From Antedon mediterranea (lineage: Eukaryota; Echinodermata; Crinoidea; Comatulida; Antedonidae), in assembly GCF_964355755.1 (NCBI RefSeq), contig NC_092671.1:625001-689000 (forward strand): DNA of 64,000 bases. The letters run 5' to 3'. This document shows, one piece after another, positions 288 through 55,400 of the stretch. A program made the translations under genes and the position numbers. A model generated the notes under the pieces. That model had not been told where the DNA came from. It saw only the letters and a list, made by a program, of their open reading frames with translations, and made no database searches. Every line of letters begins with the position of its first letter. The stretch's first letter is position 1.

Positions 288-1874
288 ATGAACGTAAAGA
301 CGGGAGAGTCTTATGCTGAACGAAGCACTGGACTTGGCGCCAAAATACTGGTTCTTGGGGACAGCGGAGTCGGTAAGACCCGCCTAGTTAGACGCTTTGT
401 AGAAGATACTTTTATTCCACGCTATGTTGCTACAGTTGGGGTTGATTTCAGATCAAAGGCTGTCAAAGTAGGAGGAAAAGAATTGATGCTGCAAATATGG
501 GATACAGCGGGTCAAGAGCGTTTTCGATCCATGACAACAACTATTTTCAGAGGTGCAGAAGGTAAGATCACTTTGTTTGGTACCTTTACCGCTTCATGGG
601 TGTGTGCGCACACAATAAATGTAATGATTATTAATTGTTAATGATGATTAAGATGATAATGGTGACGATAAGTATGACAATGGTTTTGAATTTGACGACA
701 TGTTAAGGTCCAAAACGATTTATTGTTGACACGCTTTCATCAGTGACGACGATATGATCCTAATAGAGATGATGACAATGATAATGATGACATTAAATAT
801 GAGAATGACGATGATGATATAGCAAAATTGATGACAATGACGACATAATGTTAACGGTTTACAGGTTGGCATGCATTCATCATAGTTAATTATTATAATG
901 TTATTCTAGAATGTCGATAATGAGGCCTATGATAAACCTAATTTATAATGGGTAATTCAAATTACACAATGTCCATGTGTAGCGTATTCGACGACGCATT
1001 TTAAATTGATTGATACCATAAACTAATACAGCAACATCAGGGAAATGTAATCGTTCAGTTTTTAATCAATAAGTGATCACGTGACAGAGTAATCATTCAA
1101 TTGGAATAGGCTTATGTTGTTTAAAAATATGTAATCAACACTCATTAATAATTACAAACATGAGATGAGCAAAATACGCGAGACATTGTCAATGTCAGTA
1201 CTCTGTGTGTCGTGGTGTAAGTGACAATTCACATTACAAAAGAATGAATGAATGTTCAAAAGTTAATGATGAGTCAAATACTGAATATTATTAATGTAAT
1301 AGTAACCATCTAGATTGATCATTCTAATGATGTTAGACTATTTGAGCATAGTTACACGAACATATTGGATTGCCAAATAATGATTGTTAATGCAATTATT
1401 AAATTCATTTCGATCGAATAATACCACACATAATATGAGGTTATTACTTTTAGTATAGGCCTATGCATTGTATTCATAGAAGCTATTTTAATGTCAACTA
1501 TTATATTTTTTATAGGCGCAATTTTAGTTTACGATGTATCATCGCGAGTATCGTTTGATCATCTAGAAGATTGGATAGAAAGTATACGAAAGAGTGCTGA
1601 CCAAAACATACGAGTGGTTGTTGTTGGCAACAAAACGGATAAAGAAGACCAAATCGAGGTTGACGCGCGTACTGGCAAGAAATTTTCCGAACTAATGGGA
1701 TTGAACTTCTTTGAAACTAGCGCGCAATCTGGCAAAAATGTTGACAAACCGTTTAACAGGTTAGCAAAGGAAATACTGGAAGCACGACAAATTACAGAAA
1801 CACAATTATTTGAACAAGAGAGGAATAAGGTGCCTATTTCTGAAGAAAAGAAAACATTTGAATGTCTATGCTAG
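288..1874 (+). CDS. Rab-family small GTPase (two coding exons)
   Basis: Coding exons are 288-561 and 1516-1874, joined at donor GGTAAG and acceptor TATAG in phase 1; the product is 210 aa. A GTG six bases upstream is in frame, but ATG 288 is the sensible animal start. All G motifs are visible: P-loop GDSGVGKT (residues 24-31), switch I threonine T49 in TVGVDF, WDTAGQE (71-77), NKTD (130-133) and ETSA (158-161). The protein ends in ECLC, a CXC double-geranylgeranylation motif typical of Rabs. Family knowledge says it should act as a membrane-trafficking switch on a vesicle or organelle surface. The sequence after switch II (MTTTIFRGAEG instead of the common YYRGA) is divergent, and I cannot assign a subfamily with confidence. 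The gene converges with the TRANK1-like gene. An AATAAA lies at 2012. Confidence 0.93.
562..1515 (+). other. Intron of the Rab gene
   Basis: This 954-base intron has no coding signal. The part at about 640-850 is a degenerate GAT/GAC-rich simple repeat (GATGATGACAATGATAATGA and variants). The rest is AT-rich unique-looking sequence. Confidence 0.8.
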
Positions 1875-2011
1875 AAAATATCGGCTTTTATGCTTTTATA
1901 ACAGAGAGGAAAGAGTTATTACTAGGTCGCGGGCGCGGCATGAGTTTCGCGTGCGCAATGACATCTTCTGAATTTAGACAACTTTAATAAGCTATATAAA
2001 GGAATTAAAGG

Positions 2012-2017
2012 AATAAA
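2012..2017 (+). terminator. Candidate poly(A) signal of the Rab gene
   Basis: AATAAA lies 138 bases after the stop codon at 1872-1874, a normal distance for a short 3' UTR. No experimental support is available in the sequence. Confidence 0.5.
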
Positions 2018-2475
2018 AGCAACTTATTGCTTGTCTATTGGTCATGTTGTAAAAGTATAGCCTAGAGGTGCATGACCACCGGTAAGTGCGGATGTAGCGC
2101 GGACTTGGTGCTCCATAGTAAATTTGATAATATGCTGGTGCACATAATACAATTCACCAAGGTAATGTTGTTAAATTCACTATTGTTATAGTGAAACGTT
2201 TCTCAGCCTGTCTGTCGTTAAAATAGTGTGGTAACACGAGTTCAATACAGCAATAGTAATAATAATATTATAATATTTTGACATTTTAAATGTGTTTTAT
2301 ACTATAGTACACTTTGTTTCATTTGTTAAGCACTAATTATCTGAACGATATGTATGCACAATAATATAAAATATCTAACCGTTATTAATGTATGTCTTTG
2401 ATTGTTAAATGCAAAAACATGTTAAGAAACTTGAAAGATGAAACAATTCAATCAGTAATCTGAAATATTTGTAAA

Positions 2476-3665
2476 GCTTGGTTCCCACTAGCGACGCACC
2501 GTAACGCAACCTACGCAACGTAAAGTTTGGTTCCCACTAGCGACGCACCGTAACGCAACCTACGCAACGTAAAGCTTGGTTCCCACTAGCGACGCACCGT
2601 AACGCAACCAACGCAACGTAAAGCTTGGTTCCCAATAGCGACGCACCGTAACGTAACCTACGCAACGTAAAGCTTGGTTCCCACTAGCGACGCACCGTAA
2701 CGCAACGTAAAGCTTGGTTCCCACTAGCGACGCACCCTAAAGCTTGGTTCCCACTAGCGACGCACCCTAAAGCTTGGTTCCCACTAGAACGTAACGCAAG
2801 GACGTAAACGCAACGTAAGCGTTTTAACCAATGACAAGCGAAGTTATAGACAGTTAAGCTTGGTTCCCACTAGAACCGTACCTAAAGAGCCAACAACAAC
2901 ATCGGCAAGGGTTCGTCGAGGCCGACTCGCTCCTAGTTCTGGTGGTGGAACAAGTCTTCTCGGATAAGGACTATAAACCGTAGGTCCAGTGTACACAGTT
3001 ATAACCTGTGTGTACTTTAAAGAACCCAGTTCATTATTCGAAAAAGAGTAGGGGGTTGAACTGGTTCACACAATAGCCCCTGATACAGGGGATTACCACC
3101 TATCTGATAGGACAGTGATTAATTCACTATTGGTAATCCTTGGCCACATTGCCTAAAGACATAAAATAAAAAATAAAATAAATAAAGAACGTAACGCAAG
3201 GACGTAAAGGCAACGCAAGCGCTTTAACCAATGACAAGCGAAGTTATAGACAGTTAGCAATCACAAGCGAATAAGCCATCGCTTGTGATTGGTCAATTCA
3301 CTTACGTTGCTTTACGTCCTTGCGTTGCGTCGCTAGTGGGAACCACGCTTTAGAAATCACAAGCGAATAAGCCATCGCTTGTGATTGGTCAATTCACTTG
3401 CGTTGCGTTACGTCCTTGTGTTGCGTCGCTAGTTGGAACCACGCTTAACGCAACCTACGAAACGTAAAGCTTGGTTCCCACTAGCGACGCACCGTTAACG
3501 CAACTTACGCAACGTAAAGCTTAGTTCCCACTAGCGACGCACCGTAATGCAACCTACGCAACGTAAGAAAAGCACTGATGCGTCGTCAGTTCCCACTTGT
3601 GATTATGCAATAAAGCACTTTGCGTCAATACGTCGCTGCGTTGCGTTGCGTCGCTAGTGGGAACC
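2476..3665. repeat. Clustered foldback/MITE repeats (family A)
   Basis: About a dozen head-to-tail and inverted copies of a CpG-rich motif occur here. Forward copies read GCTTGGTTCCCACTAGCGAC followed by GCACCGTAACGCAACC (2476-2790, 3470-3560). Inverted copies contain GCGTCGCTAGTGGGAACCAC (3326-3360, 3425-3445, 3650-3667). Forward units at 2476-2700 are spaced about 54 bases. The forward and inverted ends, plus a shared inner segment (ACCAATGACAAGCGAAG and its complement-like partner), indicate nested terminal-inverted-repeat elements. The composition differs sharply from the AT-rich surroundings. Confidence 0.8.
2874..3188 (+). mobile_element. SINE-like insertion inside the MITE cluster
   Basis: This segment interrupts a MITE copy: the ~70-base stretch beginning GAACGTAACGCAAGGACGTA occurs on both sides (2786-2855 and 3188-3257). 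It contains TCTTCTCGGATAAGGACTAT and TTAAAGAACCCAGTTCATTA, then a run ending in an A-rich tail (AAATAAAATAAATAAAG). From memory this resembles a central domain seen in several invertebrate SINEs with a conserved TCTTCTCGGATAAGGAC core. The family name is not certain and no Pol III A/B boxes were confirmed. Confidence 0.5.
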
Positions 3666-3839
3666 ACGCATTAGTCTATGCTGTAAAAGAACTAAACACA
3701 GTTTGTCGCACCATTCCATTCTATACTGAAGTGCGAGTTTCACATCCGGCATTCTTAAGAGCAGATTTGGGGATCAGGAAGATGTTGCGATGGTGCAGTG
3801 GTGCTTTAAATTTTAAAGTTATACGAATATTTTAAAGTA

Positions 3840-4620
3840 CTATCTCAGGATTGTAGACGTAGATTGAGACGTAGATAAATAAAGTTTAATCCGTTTAATG
3901 ACAAAAAGTAAAGTAAACACCAGAAGTACGATGAGATAAACATGAAGAAACAATTATAATAATATAATAATTATAACAAATGTGTTATCATCAAATGATG
4001 TGTTGACAAATATTAATTGATTATTATTATTAATTAATCCGTTTAATGACAAAAGTAAAGTAAACACCAGAAGTAGGATGAGATAAACATGAAGAAACAA
4101 TTATAATGATATCATAATTATAACAAATTAAACAAGTTATTATCATAATGTGTTGACAAATATTAATGAACCTTGATTATTAATTAATACATCTAATAGG
4201 AAACGTAAAGCATAATAAACCCATTTAATAATAATAAACCCATCTTAAAAGAGTAATGCTGTATGGCTAAATAATTAGGATAAACAAAAACTTATGATAT
4301 AATGGTTGTTGATGATGGTGTCCATTAATAATACATTAATAACATCGAGGTGGATAATAATATACACAATTCTATTTATGATGGTGTCGATAAAAGTGTT
4401 GAAGATGTAGTGGTGATCAAATGAAGTTAATGATGGTGGTGGAACAACGGTTGTTGATGATGGTGATGGTAAAAAGGTTGTTAATAATAGTAAAGTTAAT
4501 GGTGATGGTGAAACAATGGTTGTTGATGAGAAATTCATGAAAGTGATACAGTTATGTGACGTCTAGGATAATGATAACACAACGATATATGGTGCTGACA
4601 CAAACTAGTGATATTAAATT
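3840..4620. repeat. Convergent intergenic stretch with a tandem duplication and simple repeats
   Basis: A segment of about 140 bases starting GTTTAATCCGTTTAATGACA (about 3885) is repeated once, directly, from about 4030 to 4190 with small differences. From 4285 to 4540 the sequence is a degenerate GATGATGGTG-type simple repeat. The region separates the 3' ends of the Rab gene and the TRANK1-like gene. No coding signal is seen. Confidence 0.7.
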
Positions 4621-4625
4621 TTATT
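4620..4625 (-). terminator. Candidate poly(A) signal of the TRANK1-like gene
   Basis: Minus-strand AATAAA (plus TTTATT) lies about 96 bases after the predicted stop at 4723-4721. Confidence 0.5.
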
Positions 4626-4720
4626 GGTAAAATATGAAGACATTGTAACTAATATAACTAAAAAAAATCTTTAATAAACAATAAAAAGCAATAAAAATAA
4701 ATTCAATAATAAAATATCTT

Positions 4721-6100
4721 TCATTTGTTCTTCTTGTTTCCTTTTCTTCTTTGCCTTCCACCTTTTCCTTTTTTCTTCTTTGTAACTTCCAATGTCTGGT
4801 GTTGATCTTCATCATCTGCTTCTTCTCTTATCTGTTCTGCAACATTGTCATCATCTTTTGCATTACTCGTTGCACCTACAGAAAATTTCAATATTTGTTT
4901 TTTGCCTACTATAATTAATTTAACAATGGAATTTCAGCTGTAATTTTAATTCCTTATTTAGGATTTTATACACATGCTATAGTAGTATATGAAATCTGGC
5001 TACATTTTATATTTATTCAAGAATAATAATTATGTCAATTTAAACACTAACACCAGATAGTTCCCTTCATTTTGAGATCACTATCCTGTATGTATGCATC
5101 TTTACCATAACACTTACCACTTATCTTAGTATCAGTTGGCTCCCTTCGTTTGGATGTTTCACTAGATAGTTCAATGACATTTGACCTGTACGTATGCATC
5201 AAGCTCTGAAGTTCATCAAAGTTTTCCCAGTTGCGTTTATCAATGATTTCCACCATAGTTTTATTAAAACGACTTCGGTCCTCTTTGATCCGCTTTAAAA
5301 GGCATTCCGAAAAAAAAAAAATCTTTATACATTAGAAATAGTAAAAAATAAATATGCATTTCAGAACAAGATATACTGTACAATAAGAAATCATAAGTTA
5401 TAAGAAAGTTTGAAAATGAACTACTTTAATGATAACAGTGGCAAAATGTAACTAGACTTAGACTACTACAATCAAGGTTATGTAATTCAATTTTTTTTGT
5501 AATAAACAGTAAACATTAATAAGCAAAATAACTATTTTTAATCTTATTTATTAAGGTGAAGAAATCTAATGAAACCAACTTACATTAATAAAATAATCTA
5601 AGTCTTTGTTTGCAATATCTAGACCTTTTTCATGATTCCATTCCTTTTCAGTTACTTTAAAACAAAATAATTTCTTGATATTAAAATGGCAAGTTTGATC
5701 AATCTCATAAATATAGGTTGACACTCTATGTTAGTTGGTTCATTGATGAACTGTATGTAAGCAGTAAATGTTAGTGTCAAAATGATGTCATTGAAGTCAA
5801 GTGAGGCAAATTCATCAGATTAGTCCATCATCTGAACAGCAACTTAGTCATTAAGTATCAGAAACAAAGATGAGGGATCAGGTAGTCAGCCAAACTGTAT
5901 GTTAGTCAGCCAGTTAGTATTATGATTGGTATTACCTTCAAATAATGGTACCAACTGAGTGACCATCTTGAGTTTGAATTCGTCCAATGTCTTTTTTCTG
6001 TCAATATGTTCAGGCAACAAGACATGCTCTTCCATTTCAGTAGATTTTGTTTCTGTAATGCTAATTTCTCGCTGTATGGTATAGTTTGATGTAGCCTCAC
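4721..6100 (-). CDS. TRANK1: TRANK1-like exons 29-32: C-terminal tail
   Basis: Exon 29 (6100-5936) reads [18 protein letters not shown] in the frame set by exon 28. Exon 30 (5654-5584) gives [20 protein letters not shown]. Exon 31 (5292-5118) gives [20 protein letters not shown]. Exon 32 (4875-4721) ends in a strongly basic tail, [19 protein letters not shown], before TGA. All four short exons keep phase, and the basic tail is consistent with nuclear or RNA-associated localisation (inference). Confidence 0.78.
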
Positions 6101-9100
6101 CTTAAATATAAATACATGAATTAACTATAGAATCAAAGATTCTCAAGTTAATTTAAGCGAATTAATTCAAATTCTAAATGTAACGAATTATTACTTATGA
6201 AATTATGACTGTTGAATAAACACAAGATTAGTTTATTACAGAGTAAAGATTATTACTATTATTGCAATTTCACAAAAACATTCCTTATTATTGCACTGTA
6301 CCTTCAACGGGGCTGACAGGTCTCAATTCTGTTTCATCAGCTTTTACAGTAAACGTTGTCCGGCATATTCCACATGTTGTTTCATCAACAGACAATTCCT
6401 CCTCCATTCTAATAACAAACCAAGGGTTAGATGTCTTCACATCATTCACTGGACGTTTATCTTCATCCATCTCTTTGGCGATTTGTTCCAAGACAAGATC
6501 AGCTAACATTCCTTTCTTTAAAAGGATTGACATTATTGTTGAGGTGAACTTTTGTCTGAATGCTAGATTTGATCTTATCTTAGAAATCATGTCAGATTTC
6601 TTTTCTAAGTCTTGATGTTCCTCAAACAATTCTTTTTGTTCCTCAAACAATTCTCTTTGTTCAGCATCTTCATCAACATCTTCAATTTTGTCAACAGAAT
6701 CTTCATCAACATTGTTTCTTGTTTTAACAAAATCGTCATCGACATCTTTGGTTGTTTCAACAGAAACTTCAACATCTTTGTTTGTTTCAACAGAATCTTT
6801 ATGAACATCTTGTCTTGTAATAACAACTTTTCTAATTATTTTGTCAGAACTTTCTGGAGCTATGATTGGTTTTATATGAATCATGCCCTCAAGACTTCCT
6901 AACCGGATCAGCTTGTAATGCTCTGTAACTATTCTTTCAAATTGTAGTTTATGAAATCTATCTGAACTCCAATGGCAGGCCATAAGATACTCATCGTCTC
7001 GTTCCATCAACAGCTTTTGAAGTGTCTGTGTTAGGTCTTTTAATGTAGTCATGCGTTTAATGCGGTCCACAGCTCTTGCTAGTCTGGGTGGGTATTGTTC
7101 ATCAGTCTGAATGTGAATTAATTGGCATCTCAATTTAAATGCAACGTCAAAGTTCAACAAATTGCGAAAGTTACACAACATTACAAGAGCTAAAACAAGG
7201 GTTCTTTCAGCTTCTCCAGATTCAATGTCCTGCCTTGACGAAAATGCATCAGAAATAATGTCAAAGCTACGATACTTATCTCCACAGATCATCAGTTCCA
7301 CAAAATTTCGAACCTGTCCGAGTATTTCACTATCTCTAATGTTCTCAACCAAGCCAACTGACTGATAGCAGGTGTAATATCTAGCACGATTTCTGCACAA
7401 TTTATCTTGAAACTGGACTTGAGCAAGGTAGCTAGCTGGCAGAAAAACTTCAATCTTGCGATTAACTTTAGCCATTACTGCACATGCAACGGTAAACGCT
7501 TGCTCGATTATTGCAACAGTATTTGCAATAGATGGGATTAGAGGGTCATAAGGTCTTTTGGCAATAAACACCAAAAATCTGTTGCAGCTACCAATTGCTT
7601 TTAGTGGGTCACCACTGACATTCAAATTAGCTGAATAATCCAACATTCGGCGCATGTTGCTCAATGTACCTTTACCCTTCTCAAACCAAATTCCTAATGG
7701 AAGTTTTTTAAGCTTAGTACACTCCTTTTCATCTTCACTCATCCATTGCTTTATGGTGTTTGGGTCTTCCTCGACCAGACGGTGAACATTCAAAGCTTTA
7801 AGGTAAACATCTGAGTTACAGTTTCTCATATTAACTGGTACATTATCTCGAAGATGTAAGACCCATGCTTTCATTTCTTGCTTTACCTCATGTTGACGAA
7901 TTATATACAAGTGTTTCTCAATCACTTGAGTTGCTATACGACGATTGCAGTGAGATGGAAACACAAGATCATATAATTTGGAACAAGGCTGGTGTTTCCA
8001 TGCAATGATGTTATCTATTAAAATCTGCATATCTTCAGGTCCAATAGTGAGATTTTTCCATTGTTTTGCACAGTGAACCAACTTGATCATTGTCACAAAG
8101 CAGTCAACAAGCTGTAAAACATTATCTGCTTGGTAAAAATTGTGTAAATGTTTACATTCTTCTCTAGAACAAGCTCTACCTGTTGCAAAAAATAGACACT
8201 GTTGTGTCTTTGCTTCGACATTCAAAAGGTTCTCTTTAACTCTTCTAAACCAGTTTGTTGCTTTAGGCAAACAATGTTTTTGTACAACATTTAAACGAGC
8301 CTGTTTGAATTTAGCTTCAGCAAATTGACTTTGAGAATTAGCTCCAAGATCTAAACCATAGAAGTGCTCTGCTGAGTTGACAAGCTGCTGACCTTTTGTA
8401 CCATCATAGTTGATTAAAATATCAACAAATCTATAAATTTTTGCCAGATTAGGAACGATTTTTCGCGAAAGCAATTCTTCTAGTTGTAGACGTAAGTGAA
8501 AGCATTCCATTTGACCTGCATCACTGGAAGCCTGAAGGAAGTGCTTTGCTGCATCACTCAGTAAAAAAATATCATTGTTCAACTCTGCAAGAATAAACTC
8601 ACAGTCTCCTAGAAGCCTTGGCAAACCTTTACTTATTTTCAATAACTTCAATGATTCTTCTGCATGTTTCTTGACGTCTTCTACCATTACTTTCCTTTTA
8701 CTTTCATATATCTGACAGCTTGACATTGGAGATTTCTCACAAACTACAGTACTTTCCTCTTTCAAGACATTGACTTCTTTGTCTTCACTATCATTCAAAT
8801 TTCCTGGAATATTTTCATCAGTAGAACCATCTCCTTCTGGCTTGATAGACTCAACATCATTTTCTATGTTATTTGACTCTGCTGTGATAGACATCTCTGG
8901 TGATTGAATCTCTGCAATCTCTTTTGATGGATTATCTGTCGATGGAATCTCTTCTTCAGTTTTTATTTCTACATCATTCTCAGTTGGCTGGTAACTTTCT
9001 GTTTCTAAAGTTTCTGTCTCTTTTTTGCTTAAGACCATATCACCATTCTCTTCTTTCTTAAGAAACTCTATGCCAGATTCATGTACAGTGGTTTTCTTAA

Positions 9101-12100
9101 GAAGGTCCATACCAGATTCATGAACAGCGCTTTTCTTAAGAGGCTTCAAACGGATAATATCAGAATCTTTAATAATTGGCTTTGTCAAATCAAAATTTCT
9201 GAGTTGTCTCATCTTCTGTTTTGCTAACTTTAAGTGGCATTCAGCACGGAATTCTAGGTGATCATTATGGCATAGCTCAATGGCTTGTAGAAGATCACCA
9301 GAAGCTTTCAAGATTTCAGCAGCCTCTTTCAACCTTCCTTCAGTTTTAAGAATTTCGACGGCATAGGGATGTAAGTTATAACCTTTCAAAAATGTTACTC
9401 GATCATCTACATTTGGTAATCTGTTCAAAGCTTCCAACATTTTAGGATAAGCTTTCTGTTGAAGATGTTGTTTAGCTGCACGATGGCAACATATGGCAAA
9501 ATTATCTCTGAAAAAACAATTTCATATGTTTATTTAACATTTGTTAGTGACAGAATAAAACAAAAAATAACTACAGTAGAATAGAAAATAAGATAATAGG
9601 TAAATGTTGCACTGGCCACATTTACATACCTTGGTGGTACACAACCATCAGGGCGGTCATTTACATACCTTGGTGGTACACAACCATCAGGGAGGTCATT
9701 TACATACCTTGGTGGTACACAACCATCAGGGAGGTCATTTACATACCTTGGTGGTACACAACTATCAGGGAGGTCATTTACATACCTTGGTGGTACACAA
9801 CCATCAGGGAGGTCATTTACATACCTTGGTGGTACACAACCATCAGGGAGGTCATTTACATACCTTGGTGGTACACAACCATCAGGGAGGTCATTTACAT
9901 ACCTTGGTGGTACACAACCATCAGGGAGGTCATTTACATACCTTGTGGTACACAACCATCAGGGAGGTCATTTACATACCTTGGTGGTACACAACCATCA
10001 GGGAGGTCATTTACATACCTTGGTGGTACACAACCATCAGGGAGGTCATTTACATACCTTGGTGGTACACAACCATCAGGGAAGTCATTTACATACCTTG
10101 GTGGTACACAACCATCAAGGAGGTCATTTACATACCTTGGTGGTACACAACCATCAGGGAAGTCATTTACATACCTTGGTGGTACACAACCATCAGGGAG
10201 GTCATTTACATACCTTGGTGGTAAACAACCATCAGGGAGGTCATTTACATACCTTGGTGGTACACAACCATCAGGGAGGTCATTTACATACCTAGTCATA
10301 GTCATAGTCATATATACTTTATTGTCCATTTAAAAAACAGAAATGTGATTTGAAAACTGGCAAAATACAAAAATATAAAATACAATTTACAAAAACACAC
10401 ACAAAAAGTTAAGAGGCTAAAAATTGTTAAAATTAGATAAAAATTATCGGTTACATTTTACCTTTGTACTCTGGAGTTATATAAGTGTATAGCATTAGGT
10501 ACAAACGAGCACCTAAACCGTTTTGTTTTGGTATTAAGTGCACGTAGTCTTATGCCAGAATTCATGAGAGCAAATTGTTTGTGAAGAGGATGTGTTTCAT
10601 CATCAATGATACTTTTTACTTTTTTTAACACATTTTCTTTATACAAGGATTCAACATCAGGTGCTCTCCTACTAGTCTAATTGCTCTATTTCCTATTCGA
10701 TTAAGTTTAATTTTATCTTTTTGGATTGTATTACCATAAAAACAAACATTACAAAAAAGTATTACGGTACACTGAGAATTACAGAGTTATAAAACAATTT
10801 AAGTATAGTTTTGTCAATTTGTAGGTACTTCATTTATCTTAAAATAAACATCCTTTGGTTGGCTTTGCATGTGGCTTTATTTACATTATCTATATATAAA
10901 TTTACGTAAGGGCAAAATTCGGTAAATCGCGCGTTATTTCTAGAATGTTTACTCGATGGAATATAAAGTTGGTTAGAATCTCGGTACTGATTTTAACCAC
11001 CTGATGTAACCCTGTTTACTAATTAAATTGAGTTAGATAATTAGTTATTGACAATTAAAACGAATTTAGGTTCAACGATTTGCCCCAAATAGGGGTGTTT
11101 TTCGATCGTGGTATACACTGTCTAATGGATGTCCGTCTTGAAAAATACCCACAGACAATAATACGAGGATGCTTCGCATTTTCCTATCTCCTCCTACGAT
11201 AAATGTTTTTAATGGCTGAAAACCGGTTGAACAGCTCGAGTACAGCATCATAATGTTGAAGACAGGCCGCTTTTCTTTAAAAAATACTATTTTGATAGAT
11301 TTAATATACGTTTATACAAATGTATTGATTTGCGATGAATGGAACATTCCAATCTCTGTTCCACAAGTGTCTATTCCCTCAGGCGTCGTAAAGGAAAGTA
11401 CTGTATACTCATAATAGAAATTTGATCCATTTTTTTTCTCAATCTGTGCTGCAGAGGTTGGATATAATTTTTTTAAACTGATAATGAGCTAGCGTTTTCA
11501 GTCGCAGTATATTATGTAAAAATCTTTATTATTGCATTTAAACCACCCACATCATCACCCTTCCCTCACTGGCATGAGTAGCGTTGTAAAGCCAGTACAG
11601 GATAGGCCTCGGTCCATCACATCCCCTAAACGCAGAACAAAAGTATGAATTGGCTCTAAGAAACAATTGAAAACCATTAGGCCTACTAATTAAGTTGAGT
11701 TAGATAATTTAATATTTATTGACGATTAAATCGAATTTATGATTTTCCTCGAATAGAGGTGGTTTTCACAAATTGTTTTACATTATATAAACATACACGT
11801 CGTAGTGATGTGTCGTTACATGTACTGTACTATTCCAATCGACTAGGACGGTGATAGTTTCAACAAAGTATTACATAGCAATGTTTTACTGTGTTTAGTG
11901 GTATATTATTTGTAAAACATGAAAAAAATTAATATTTCGTTACTAAATGGATAAAGAATATATTTAATATATTTAAAAATTGTTCCTCTTTGCACCCATC
12001 CTCTTCGCCATTCCTCACCCCTAATGTTACATACAAAACACAAATTAAGTTTGTTTAAATTTGACTTAAACAATTGGTCTCATTTTGTGACAAGTTTCTC

Positions 12101-15100
12101 TTTCGGAAGTAATTCTCAGGGTGCTAATTTTAGTTGAGTACATAAATCATTGTCTATTTATTCGTTCCTGTAAACAACATGTATTATTGTACGTACATTT
12201 GAAATCGCCAGTTTTTTAACGCTGAAATTATTATGTATTCGAGAACCATCTGTGGGCACGATCTAGATGGTACGCGAGCGAAGCGAGCGTACCATCTAGT
12301 TTATCCAATTTAGCTTATTGTCAATTATACAACCCAGATATTTGTACTCATTTACTACTTCAATCTCATTTTCATTTATAATCAGAGGTTCTAAGGGTTC
12401 TTTAATTTTCCTAAAATCAATTTGCATTTCTTTTGTTTTCTTTATGTTTAGTTTCAGGTTGTTATTGCAGCACCAGTGATAAAAATCACATCCTAGTTGT
12501 CTATAGCTTGTTTCATCATTGCCAGTAATGTATCCAGTGATGACTGTGTCATCTGCATATTTTACTATACAACATTCATTTGAATTGGCTCTGAAACTGC
12601 TGGTGAACAGTGAAAACAACATTGGGGAGATAACAGACCCTTGTGGCGTGCCAATGCTAACAGTTCTTTTATCAGATAAAATACCGTTTAGTTTAACATA
12701 CTGGAACCTTTTTGTTAAGAAATTATATATCCATGAAGTCAATGTGTCGTTTACGTTCATTTCTTTAAGTTTGCGTACTAATGAACCAGGTTCAACGGTA
12801 TTAAAAGCACTAGAAAAATCTATATACAAACATCTTACATATGATTTAGGCACATCTAAATGTTGGTAAATATTATGTAAGTGGAAGAGCACAGCATCTT
12901 CAACACTTACCTTGGTGGTACACAACCATCAGGGAGGTCATTTACATACCTTGGTGGTACACAACCATCAGGGAAGTCATTTACATACCTTGGTGGTACA
13001 CAACCATCAGGGAGGTCATTTACATACCTTGGTGGTACACAACCATCAGGGAGGTCATTTACATACCTTGGTGGTACACAACCATCAGGGAGGTTTATTT
13101 ACATACCTTGGTGGTACACAACCATCAGGGAGGTCATTGTTGGCTTTTCTCTGCTCATATCTTTCAACCACATCAGCTGCTTTGTCAAACTCTCTATTTT
13201 GTTTTAAAACCTTGACAGCTGTTGCATAGTCACCACGCTTTTCATGACATCGGCTAGCATCACGGTAACTCCCCAATCGGGTCTCAAAGATCTTTGCAGC
13301 ACCAGCAACCTAATATAAAAAAGAATGCATTTTATGAGTACAAAAAGCAAGATAGTAGAGAAAGAAATAATGATAATAATAAAATAAGGATAGATAATAA
13401 TTTTCAGATTTCCTTCATGCCCCATGAAGTACTTGCAAAAACATCCTAAACATAAAATATTTGCCACACGTTTTTTCTTGTGCTTCATATTATGCTTCTT
13501 TGTACAATGCTAATGTGTTTATTCATCTAAAATCTCAAAATGTAAAGATCTCGAAGGAAATTCGGAAATTATCATGTCTTTTTTCAATAATTTTGTAGTA
13601 CTGTAGTTTGTGACTTTCTAAGTTAAAATCAATTTATACCAGGGTATAAGTTTGTACTTACATCACCAATCTTTTCAAAGAGCTGAGCAGATAGATCAAA
13701 TGTCTTGCTGTTGAAGAGGCATCGCGCTGCTTCATTGTGCATTCCACACTGTAAGAAATCATACGCTGCTTGAAGATACCAATCACACATTTTGGAAACA
13801 TTCACTGATCCTTTCATCTTCTCTGCTTCAGTTACTCGAAGGCTGGCATTTGCTTTCAACACTTTCTCCTCTGAAAATGAAATTAGGACACTACTTCTGT
13901 TTTGCTTGTTCATCCAAGAAACAGATTTAGCAAAGGAGTTTTTTTTTATTTTCAAATGTTATCTATCTGTGTTTGTAGGTAAAAGAGTATAGTAGACTTA
14001 CCATTTCCCGCAGTTCTGTAGCATTTGAGTGCTACTTCCCATAGACTATTATTATAGAAGTAATCGCCTCTCTTCTCCCAGTCCTCTGGTGATGACTTTT
14101 CCACAAACATAACATCATGGACTATGAAAAGAAATACATCAACTGAAAATATCTTACTTATTTTAAGATCACGTTTGGCACAAAATGTTTTAATGCAGAG
14201 AAACCTTCTGGTGAAGTTTAAAGGTAAAGTGAACAGCTGTATTTCATGAATATACCATGACAGGCCCATTCTAATAATAATCGCATTAGAAAAGAAACAT
14301 TTTCAGTCTTTTCTTTTTAACAATATTTCAGGACTGTCATTTAGTAGTAGTAGTTATTAAAAAATTAAATTAAATTGTTATATTTTGTGTTTATCATGTT
14401 CTATTTACATTGGCTTTGACTTGATAAATCTTCTTTTGCTTCCAGAACTTGAACAAGTTTTCTAACTTTGAAGTATTGAAACATTGGCTTGCGATTGTTA
14501 ATGTCTTCATCAAAGATCCAAACATTCACACGAGCACGGCTGATGGCGGTATACAAATACTTCAATTCAGAATTCAATACCTGTGTTATAATAAAATGGT
14601 TTTTACTTTACAGCCTTACCTGCAATTACACTATATGTCATTAAATGAGGCATTGGTTAACAAATATCTGGGAAGATGTTCAAACTTCCTAATAAGTATC
14701 TTTTTTATTTCAATAAAATCAATACACAAAATTCAATGGATAGATTTATTTTATGAGGCACATTTTCTGTGTGAAGATGTGAGTCTTTTATCGCATTTGA
14801 TTGGAGCACTTATTTATTATTTTAACATGAATATTAATAAAAAGGTTCATCTGGATCTCTGTATACTGTAGTATTTAAATGATTTTTCTTTTGGATCATC
14901 CAAAAGAATAATTATTTGAATAACATGCATATTGATGCAAAGTGTATCTAACTTTACTGCTTGGACTTTAGTGATGCTGAATTACCTTGTGTTTATCAGG
15001 GTCAAAGGCCAGCTTCCTAGGTTGTTCTGCAGTACAATTCATGACATCAATGTCTAACTCAAACAAATTTGATTCACTGTTGTCATTGTTTGTATTCTGC

Positions 15101-52494: not shown

Positions 52495-55400
52495 CTACAA
52501 AAAAGCATAAAAACCTCTAAATAAAAAGTAAATGAAAAAGAGGAATAAAATAAAATGTTGTGTTATAAAGTACCATAGTTGTTTCTATGTGTTATAGAGT
52601 AAAATGTTGTGTTATAAAGTGCCATAGTTGTTACTATGTGTTATGGAGTAAAATGTTGTGTTATAAAGTACCATAGTTGTTTCTATGTGTTATAGAGTAA
52701 AATGTTGTGTTATAAAGTACCATAGTTGTTTCTATGTGTTATAGAGTAAAATGTTGTGTTATAAAGTACCATAGTTGTTTCTATGTGTTATAGAGTAAAA
52801 TGTTGTGTTATAAAGTACCATAGTTGTTTCTATGTGTTATAGAGTAAAATGTTGTGTTATAAAGTACCATAGTTGTTTCTATGTGTTATAGAGTAAAATG
52901 TTGTGTTATAAAGTACCATAGTTGTTTCTATGTGTTATAGAGTAAAATGTTGTGTTATAAAGTACCATAGTTGTTTCTATGTGTTATAGAGTAAAATGTT
53001 GTGTTATAAAGTACCATAGTTGTTTCTATGTGTTATAGAGTAAAATGTTGTGTTATAAAGTACCATAGTTGTTTCTATGTGTTATAGAGTAAAATGTTGT
53101 GTTATAAAGTACCATAGTTGTTTCTATGTGTTATAGAGTAAAATGTTGTGTTATAAAGTACCATAGTTGTTTCTATGTGTTATAGAGTAAAATGTTGTGT
53201 TATAAAGTACCATAGTTGTTTCTATGTGTTATAGAGTAAAATGTTGTGTTATAAAGTACCATAGTTGTTTCTATGTGTTATAGAGTAAAATGTTGTGTTA
53301 TAAAGTACCATAGTTGTTTCTATGTGTTATAGAGTAAAATGTTGTGTTATAAAGTACCATAGTTGTTTCTATGTGTTATAGAGTAAAATGTTGTGTTATA
53401 AAGTGCCATAGTTGTTTCTATGTGTTATAGAGTAAAATGTTGTGTTATAGAGTGCCATAGTTGTTTCTATGTGTTATAGAGTAAAATGTTGTGTTATAAA
53501 GTGCCATAGTTGTTTCTATGTGTTATAGAGTAAAATGTTGTGTTATAAAGTGCCATAGTTGTTTCTATGTGTTATAGAATAAAATGTTGTGTTATAAAGT
53601 ACCATAGTTGTTTCTATGTGTTATAGAGTAAAATGTTGTGTTATAAAGTGCCATAGTTGTTACTATGTGTTATAGAGTAAAATGTTGTGTTATAAAGTAC
53701 CATAGTTGTTTCTATGTGTTATAGAGTAAAATGTTGTGTTATAAAGTACCATAGTTGTTTCTATGTGTTATAGAGTAAAATGTTGTGTTATAAAGTGCCA
53801 TAGTTGTTACTATGTGTTATAGAGTAAAATGTTGTGTTATAAAGTACCATAGTTGTTTCTATGTGTTATAGAGTAAAATGTTGTGTTATAAAGTACCATA
53901 GTTGTTTCTATGTGTTATAGAGTAAAATGTTGTGTTATAAAGTACCATAGTTGTTACTATGTGTTAAAGAGTAAAATGTTGTGTTATAAAGTACCATAGT
54001 TGTTTCTATGTGTTATAGAGTAAAATGTTGTGTTATAAAATACCATAGTTGTTTCTATGTGTTATAGAGTGCCATAGTTGTTTCTATGTGTTATTATTAT
54101 AGAGTTCTGAAACTTGAGAAACTTTTCATTGGAACATTATTATTTTTAATAGAGTGACATTTTCTATTGTGAGAAACTTTTAATTTGTTATTGTTAGAAC
54201 TTAGAGGTTATTTCAATTCAAAAAGACATTTATTTTCGTCCAACAAACAATAAGAAAAAGATAGTAATGGATGAAGGCAGACTCTTAATAAGATAAAAAT
54301 CTTGTGGTGGGATTTCCCAAGACAAGTTGATATCGTAACAATAAAACAAATCAATAAATAAACAACGAGAACAATTTGTATATAAAATTACCTCTGCAAA
54401 AACTCCATCAGAATGCCATCAGTGACTAAATAGTTATGTTCAAGAAGCACCTTCTGAAGATCTTTGATGGAGATCTTCCCAGTGTTGCCAGTGTCAATGG
54501 CATTGAAGGCTTCTTGGAAGGAGCTGTAACAATCTCTAAAACGGTCTTTTAAGCCTTGCTCTAGCTGGTCAGCAGAGATAAATGTTGCATTCTGAGCCTG
54601 GTTTAGCGTGATATTCATTCTGAAATTAAGAATTTACAACGTAATTAATAGTTGGTTTAAAAGTATAAGGCAATGAAAATGAGTAAAAACCAAACTAGTA
54701 CTTTCTACTGAGTAAATTATAGGTGGGTAGGGTAAAGGTGGGTTGGATCGGTGCGCTTTGGGGTTTATAATCAATCTAAAGCTCTGTCTACACTATCAAA
54801 ATAGTTTGAAAAAAAAAAAAAGATGTGCCCAAATATGGTAGTGATATGCTTAAATATGGTAGTGATATGACATCTATATATGGGCACATCACATTTTTTT
54901 GTCACTTTCACCATAATTAACTGCAGTAATAATTGCAGTTGAAGTCCTCAAATGTTTAAATAAGATTGCCATAAAAACATACTGCTTTTGCTGCTGGTCA
55001 TCATGATGTAGTTCTAGATTTGCCTGAGAGTTGTCTACAATTCTCTTGCTGACACCCTCACTGTCTCCAGGAGCAAATGCTTGTCCCATCATCTTTAGGA
55101 AGTATTGGTGATCAATATAGCCTTTGTCTTGAGGATCATACCTAAAGTTGAGAAAGTTACATGCATAATTTTCAATTTGGTGGGCATCCAAATTTTACAC
55201 TAGTCAGAGGGGAGACTATACATTGTTTGATGCACCCTAGGTAAACTGTAATATCAAGAATGTAATATCATGTTTATCACATAATTCTGAAAGATGAAAA
55301 TGTTCACCAAAACAATCTTTGATCGGTATTTATTAAATGATACAATGTTAAATCAATGTACCGGTGGTTAGAGGAGTGTTGTATTTCTACACCAGACCCA

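Follow-up and report, generated by a model that had tools for sequence, protein, structure and literature searches.

Minisatellites built on an exon-intron junction are rarely described, and the closest known relative of the array treated here is human. In the CBS gene, a 31-bp variable number of tandem repeats (VNTR), c.1444_1467+7(16_21), comprises 24 exonic and 7 intronic nucleotides (nt) and is present in 16-21 copies (PMC2630376). Its place is the boundary between exon 13 and intron 13, and activity is reported to fall as copies are added (PMC5188458; table in PMC1395315). Another CBS variant, 844ins68, is a tandem duplication of the intron 7/exon 8 junction, from which normal mRNA is still made by splice-site choice (PMC2630376). 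Tandem duplication, including a case across an intron-exon boundary, is also described as a source of new introns (PMC4974935; PMC2891723). Among internal tandem repeats in recent human paralogues, minisatellites at exon-intron boundaries alter the exon/intron structure (PMC2812944). The array analysed here lies in the crinoid Antedon mediterranea, where the end of a coding exon of a TRANK1-like gene recurs in tandem, together with its 5' splice site (donor), inside the following intron. All window coordinates refer to a stretch of 64,000 nt (the window; positions 625,001 to 689,000 of contig NC_092671.1, assembly GCF_964355755.1).

The TRANK1-like array belongs to this known, if rarely described, kind, represented by the CBS 31-bp VNTR. 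In both, the unit joins the end of a coding exon to the first 7 intronic nt, and tandem copies run from the junction into the intron. However, the CBS VNTR is a vertebrate, polymorphic locus linked to enzyme activity, whereas the Antedon array has units of 32 + 7 nt and 23 copies, is split by a retrotransposon and comes from one assembly. The 844ins68 duplication adds one extra copy on the acceptor side, and is thus nearer to the acceptor arrays of Antedon DHX38 (see below) than to the TRANK1-like array. In intron gain by tandem duplication, splice signals are copied likewise but a new intron results; here, many copies lie inside an existing intron, after its donor, and that intron has its own acceptor. 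The repeats of human paralogues (mean 30-bp units x 4) create novel introns, whereas the Antedon repeat is a donor array. Copies of the CBS VNTR are said to act as alternative donors. A sequence-only reading of the window had called minisatellites seeded by a coding-exon boundary unusual, a view weakened by the CBS VNTR and by further junction arrays in the Antedon genome. No description of a genome with many junction-seeded splice-site arrays was found among open-licence PMC papers.

On the minus strand of the window, a 39-bp unit consisting of the last 32 exonic nt and GTATGTA occurs in 23 tandem copies (motif count on the window sequence; Table 1). The array starts at the real donor at 13106 and ends at 9619; in the register GACC...AAAT, 6 copies lie at 12901-13135 and 17 at 9620-10281. 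Thirteen copies are exact, eight carry one change, one has a 1-nt deletion (giving a 38-nt spacing) and one is cut by an insertion. The donor reads CCACCAAG/GTATGT in 21 copies, CCACAAG/GTATGT in one and AAG/GTAAGT in one. Tandem Repeats Finder (TRF) scores the array at 1301 and 439, and it is therefore not a chance resemblance. The outermost copy is the end of the open exon 13309-13107, whose frame carries on into the exon starting at 9507 when the two are joined at the first donor, and one frame of the unit is stop-free over 13 codons. As in a junction-spanning minisatellite, the coding-exon end and the donor lie inside the unit, and the 23 copies begin at the authentic junction. The earlier claims of about 23 near-identical units each holding exon end and donor, of an array beginning exactly at the real splice site, and of a unit of 13 stop-free codons were all borne out. 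The further claim that the copies fill the start of the intron held for the copies but not for their continuity, as the array is split 6 + 17 by an element at 10294-12907 that had been missed.

Judged by its structure, this insert is a 5'-truncated non-long-terminal-repeat (non-LTR) element that entered the donor of one copy. It carries a reverse transcriptase fragment (RVT_1, E 6.1e-23, Pfam) in a minus-strand open frame at 12299-12928. It sits between copies 6 and 7, and the donor of copy 6 is altered from GTATGT to GTAAGT. One GACT variant of the unit is present in block 1 and two are present in block 2; the array had therefore probably grown long before the element arrived.

The host gene has TPR matches above the Pfam cut-off, ankyrin matches below it and a GRSGTGK motif, features that together are taken here as TRANK1-like. 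A PDB search with one window exon gave no match, and in a genome search for paralogues the joined exons matched only themselves at E <= 0.001 (2 matches). The array at many unrelated loci would have pointed to a captured dispersed satellite, as the sequence-only reading had noted. However, a genome-wide search with a 35-nt core of the unit (up to 3 mismatches; 354-Mb genome) placed 22 of 22 matches at the array locus, and the reversed-pattern control gave 0.

The borders of the array suggest how it arose. AATG occurs at both, at 13138-13135 on the exon side and 7 bases into the intron on the other, forming a 4-nt microhomology; the exon directly before the array reads CAATGACC and the intron directly after it reads GTATGTAAATGTGG. 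A duplication between 4-nt microhomologies would leave just such a shared border. Because copy 1 is continuous with the coding exon, the intron continues as GTATGTAAATGTGG, the microhomology is present and the unit has a single genomic place, derivation of the array from its own exon-intron junction is supported. The direction, from exon to array, is indicated by copy 1 being part of the coding exon and by the single unrepeated continuation of the intron; it rests on this anatomy and on the conserved proteins at DHX8, DHX16, UTP6 and DHX38 (see below), in one genome. Replication slippage or microhomology-mediated repair between AATG in the exon and AATG seven bases into the intron would probably have produced a short tandem duplication, carrying the last 32 exonic nt and the donor into the intron. 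Slippage or unequal exchange would then have expanded the array to ~23 copies, and the non-LTR element would later have inserted into one of them. All new copies would lie downstream of the intact original donor, so that exon and frame survive with use of the 5'-most donor, while inner donors would be unused or would give stop-containing transcripts that are lost. The array is thus probably a neutral junction-seeded minisatellite, formed by ordinary tandem duplication, later expanded, and tolerated.

The first spacing is 40 nt, and in the frame of the exon a stop begins at intron position +19 and precedes the first inner donor, at +40, so that a transcript spliced at any inner donor would carry a stop in frame. 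At the level of sequence, the alternative sites would therefore bring premature stops, as in autoregulation by unproductive splicing, and inner donors would truncate the protein, as had been claimed. Overall, the earlier interpretation of the array is partly supported. Ten arrays were examined for frame; in nine of them, every exact inner donor is out of frame or lies beyond the first stop. The exception, at C9:1140900-1145200 (minus strand, 33-bp units), stays in frame at its first four inner donors and is the only array examined that could lengthen the protein. Nine donor arrays gave 219 countable inner copies, 217 of them with GT intact, over-divergent units having been dropped beforehand (e.g. 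1/22 inner copies at the TRANK1-like array and 2/12 at C9). Donor positions are off consensus in 29/1,294 cells against 171/5,238 elsewhere in the unit (P 0.06, ascertainment-biased), and the AQR array is reversed, its donor positions being the more variable (13/330 vs 2/880 cells). With GT nearly always intact and this marginal difference, the inner donors show no visible purging and no clear conservation. Most simply, the 5'-most site would be used and the other copies tolerated.

Similar arrays occur elsewhere in the Antedon genome. The genome was searched for three strong donors in succession, separated by 8-45 nt, and the 5' flanks were read at 37 array loci, the TRANK1-like one included, among the matches listed; the C3 satellite families and a simple-repeat array at C4:30.49 were set aside. 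The eight patterns gave 295/18, 76/12, 82/1381, 292/82, 76/10, 35/15, 21/6 and 734/406 places for pattern/reversed-pattern control, counts that are no proof of donor enrichment since the control exceeds the pattern in one search (82/1381). A plausible coding exon ending at the first donor was found at the 5' edge of 11 of the 37 loci, that is, the TRANK1-like one and 10 of 36 others (Table 1). A known protein is recovered at DHX8, DHX16 and UTP6 by splicing the first donor to the following exon, and at DHX38 by joining at the last acceptor. For the UTP6 query, the best whole-sequence E value belongs to PRPF6 (4.9e-20), with no single stretch passing; UTP6 is the best continuous match and covers the junction. 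Pfam returned nothing for the C1 and C11 exons, the rabaptin-like exon or the joined two-exon DHX8 piece. The exon at C5:23.7 matched nothing in Pfam or PDB, and its motif is presumably aminotransferase-like. The exons at C4:21.18, C9:1.14, C5:23.7 and C3:18.14 were called from open frames, acceptors and motifs, and two loci (L005 and L017) were judged from sequence and a single reading frame. In the array at C4:21179300-21184000, the second-block consensus is AAT/GTATGT, a weakened donor.

Table 1. Features of the TRANK1-like locus (window coordinates) and of junction arrays elsewhere in the Antedon genome.
Feature	Location	Strand	Details
Coding exon (exon 27 of the sequence-only reading)	13107..13309	-	203 nt, open frame, ends CCACCAAG
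Exonic part of repeat unit (last 32 nt of exon)	13138-13107	-
Outermost donor GTATGT, presumably authentic	13101..13106	-	reading frame points to its use
Array block 1, copies 1-6	12908..13138	-	first spacing 40 nt, later ones 39
Target-site duplication AGGTA, 5' copy	12908..12912	-	by reading sequence
Non-LTR retrotransposon insertion, 5'-truncated	10294..12907	-	2,614 bp; 3' tail (ATGACT)3
Target-site duplication AGGTA, 3' copy	10289..10293	-	by reading sequence
Array block 2, copies 7-23	9619..10293	-	one 38-nt spacing
Intron side of array, ...AAATGTGGCCAGTGC	9608..9622	-
Next exon, open frame, starts at 9507	6291..9507	-	reading frame continues from first donor
DHX8	C1:17775200-17779800, 1028-1873		exon end ...LTEPPG; 22 units x 37 bp, one spacing 60; PDB E 1.1e-20; next exon GDILMFLTGQEEIDTACE
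AQR	C7:17597500-17602000, 1088-2329		~56 units x 22 bp after exon end; PDB E 1.5e-20, Pfam E 2.8e-21
DHX16	C11:501000-504600	-	3 identical 40-bp donor units; PDB E 2.1e-27 for joined exons
UTP6			~9 units x 31 bp; PDB E 4.3e-17, unbroken match across the joined exons
CUB-domain protein			~11 units x 23 bp; Pfam E 9.1e-9
Rabaptin-like exon			23 units x 17 bp; weak, PDB E 0.38
C5:23.7 exon	C5:23.7		~20 units x 19 bp
Open-frame exon	C4:21.18 (C4:21179300-21184000)		41-bp donor array, two blocks
Open-frame exon	C9:1.14		donor array, 33-bp units
EIF3L-like exon	C1:18.6		Pfam Paf67 E 1.2e-4, below cut-off; unit with only 3-4 exonic nt
DHX38/PRP16	C8:28463001-28483000, 2771-10995		five junction arrays within 8.2 kb: four acceptor, one donor

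The frequency of such loci can be compared with random seeding. There are 3,383 genomic occurrences of the donor word CAGGTATGT and 2,678 of its reversed word, from which ~21% of its sites are estimated to be real donors (26% when calculated by hand from an assumed base composition). Among the matches listed, exon-edge arrays account for 4 of the 14 loci with this word, or for 4 of 10 if five look-alike C9 loci are counted as one (P 0.14 to 0.51). The exon-edge share thus fits random seeding for CAGGTATGT, the only donor word tested. Tandem arrays are also dense, with 46 in ~183 kb over nine regions chosen in part for holding an array. Given this density and the fitting share, random seeding is enough to expect junction arrays.

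Several observations nevertheless weigh against simple neutrality. Three of the ten other exon-edge genes encode the spliceosomal helicases DHX8, DHX16 and AQR, which simple random seeding leaves unexplained; under assumed intron shares of 1-3%, P is about 1e-4 to 3e-3, the category having been chosen after the data were seen. In DHX38, found when parts of further DEAH-helicase genes were read, junctions are spanned by five of eight arrays. In unselected regions the figure is 0 of 26 (Fisher P 2e-4), or 3 of 26 if ambiguous edges count (P 0.009), and simple random seeding leaves this difference unexplained too. The 26 control arrays exclude those of AQR, DHX16, DHX8 and the TRANK1-like gene, all found through the array itself, and non-junction arrays were classed by eye and with a crude codon score, the DHX15-, DHX36- and DHX40-like pieces having one ambiguous edge each. 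Moreover, when 5' splice sites are duplicated in vitro, the intron-proximal site has often been favoured.

The DHX38 acceptor arrays comprise 82 bp x 29, 91 bp x 4, 120 bp x ~12 and 43 bp x ~48, and its donor array 64 bp x ~6. The identity of the gene follows from a PDB match (E 9.1e-91) across one joined junction; only this first junction was compared with the known protein, the other four being called from open frames and DEAH motifs. In the pieces read of DHX35-, DHX36- and DHX40-like genes no junction array was established, and in the DHX15-like piece (reverse complement, 13019-13346 of the piece read) a 21-bp array has its start exactly at a GTAATA donor and hardly repeats the exon. These four names are presumed from motifs. 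The helicase clustering, post hoc and unexplained, is a lead and not a result. In the DHX36-like piece (reverse complement, 3735-4284 of the piece read), a 15-bp T-rich array reaches the acceptor before RPNLKLILMSATLN, as if a polypyrimidine tract had been amplified.

The main rival to the neutral reading is a leaky competition of the CBS kind, in which low but real use of inner donors adds stop-containing extensions and full-length mRNA falls with copy number, making the array a modifier of expression without adaptation. All 22 inner donors (21 GTATGT and one GTAAGT) have near-identical exonic context and lie beyond an in-frame stop, and for human CBS activity is reported to drop as repeats increase (PMC5188458). 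Nevertheless, the persistence of arrays in DHX8, DHX16, DHX38 and AQR, presumably essential genes, suggests that their cost is small, and such competition appears unlikely. The arrays of these four genes could instead be a selected device that senses the capacity or fidelity of splicing, with feedback by way of stop-containing isoforms and with the TRANK1-like array a by-product or relative. Three of ten other exon-edge donor arrays in DHX8, DHX16 and AQR, and five junction arrays in DHX38, speak for this; however, the category was picked after the data were seen and the intron shares were assumed, no junction array was established in the DHX35-like piece and only one, starting at the donor, in the DHX15-like piece, and donor positions are not clearly conserved (29/1,294 vs 171/5,238, P 0.06, biased, with AQR donors the more variable). 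Such a device is very improbable, as is the general form of the idea, that tandem splice-site arrays are recurrent and partly selected, accumulating as donor or acceptor arrays in these four genes, where rivalry between numerous near-identical sites would read out splicing capacity or fidelity through the same feedback.

Satellite families with donor-like words are present in the Antedon genome, which might suggest a dispersed satellite captured at the junction, but the 39-bp unit occurs at one genomic place only. An array invented by the assembly is likewise at odds with the unit variants, the indels and the inserted element with its target-site duplication, and capture or artefact together are less probable still. 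The 23 U1-like sites in one intron could also titrate the U1 small nuclear ribonucleoprotein (snRNP), as the sequence-only reading had supposed, or shield the nascent transcript from premature cleavage; the sites of one gene are, however, few relative to cellular U1, and this role is scarcely credible. A neutral, tolerated minisatellite therefore remains the preferred reading.

Choice among identical 5' splice sites has been studied mostly with few engineered copies. The TRANK1-like intron, with 23 donors whose near-identical flanks differ mainly in position, is a natural experiment on such choice, and conserved genes hold further natural arrays: DHX8 has 22 copies, AQR has ~56, and DHX38 has its acceptor arrays. 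These arrays also show that exon junctions seed minisatellites and that such minisatellites last in splicing-machinery genes. The locus is an entry to a phenomenon that recurs across the Antedon genome, in which the clustering at DHX38 is unexplained.

Other repeats in the window are of different character. A 33-bp tandem repeat at 6662-6811 lies inside the large exon of the host gene and is coding and in frame. The remaining minisatellites (41479, 47233, 52551, 59435 and 22391), read by eye, are intronic and not junction-seeded. One of them, at 52551-54070, has 31 copies of a 49-bp intronic unit and stops ~55 bp short of the acceptor that precedes an EF-hand-like exon.

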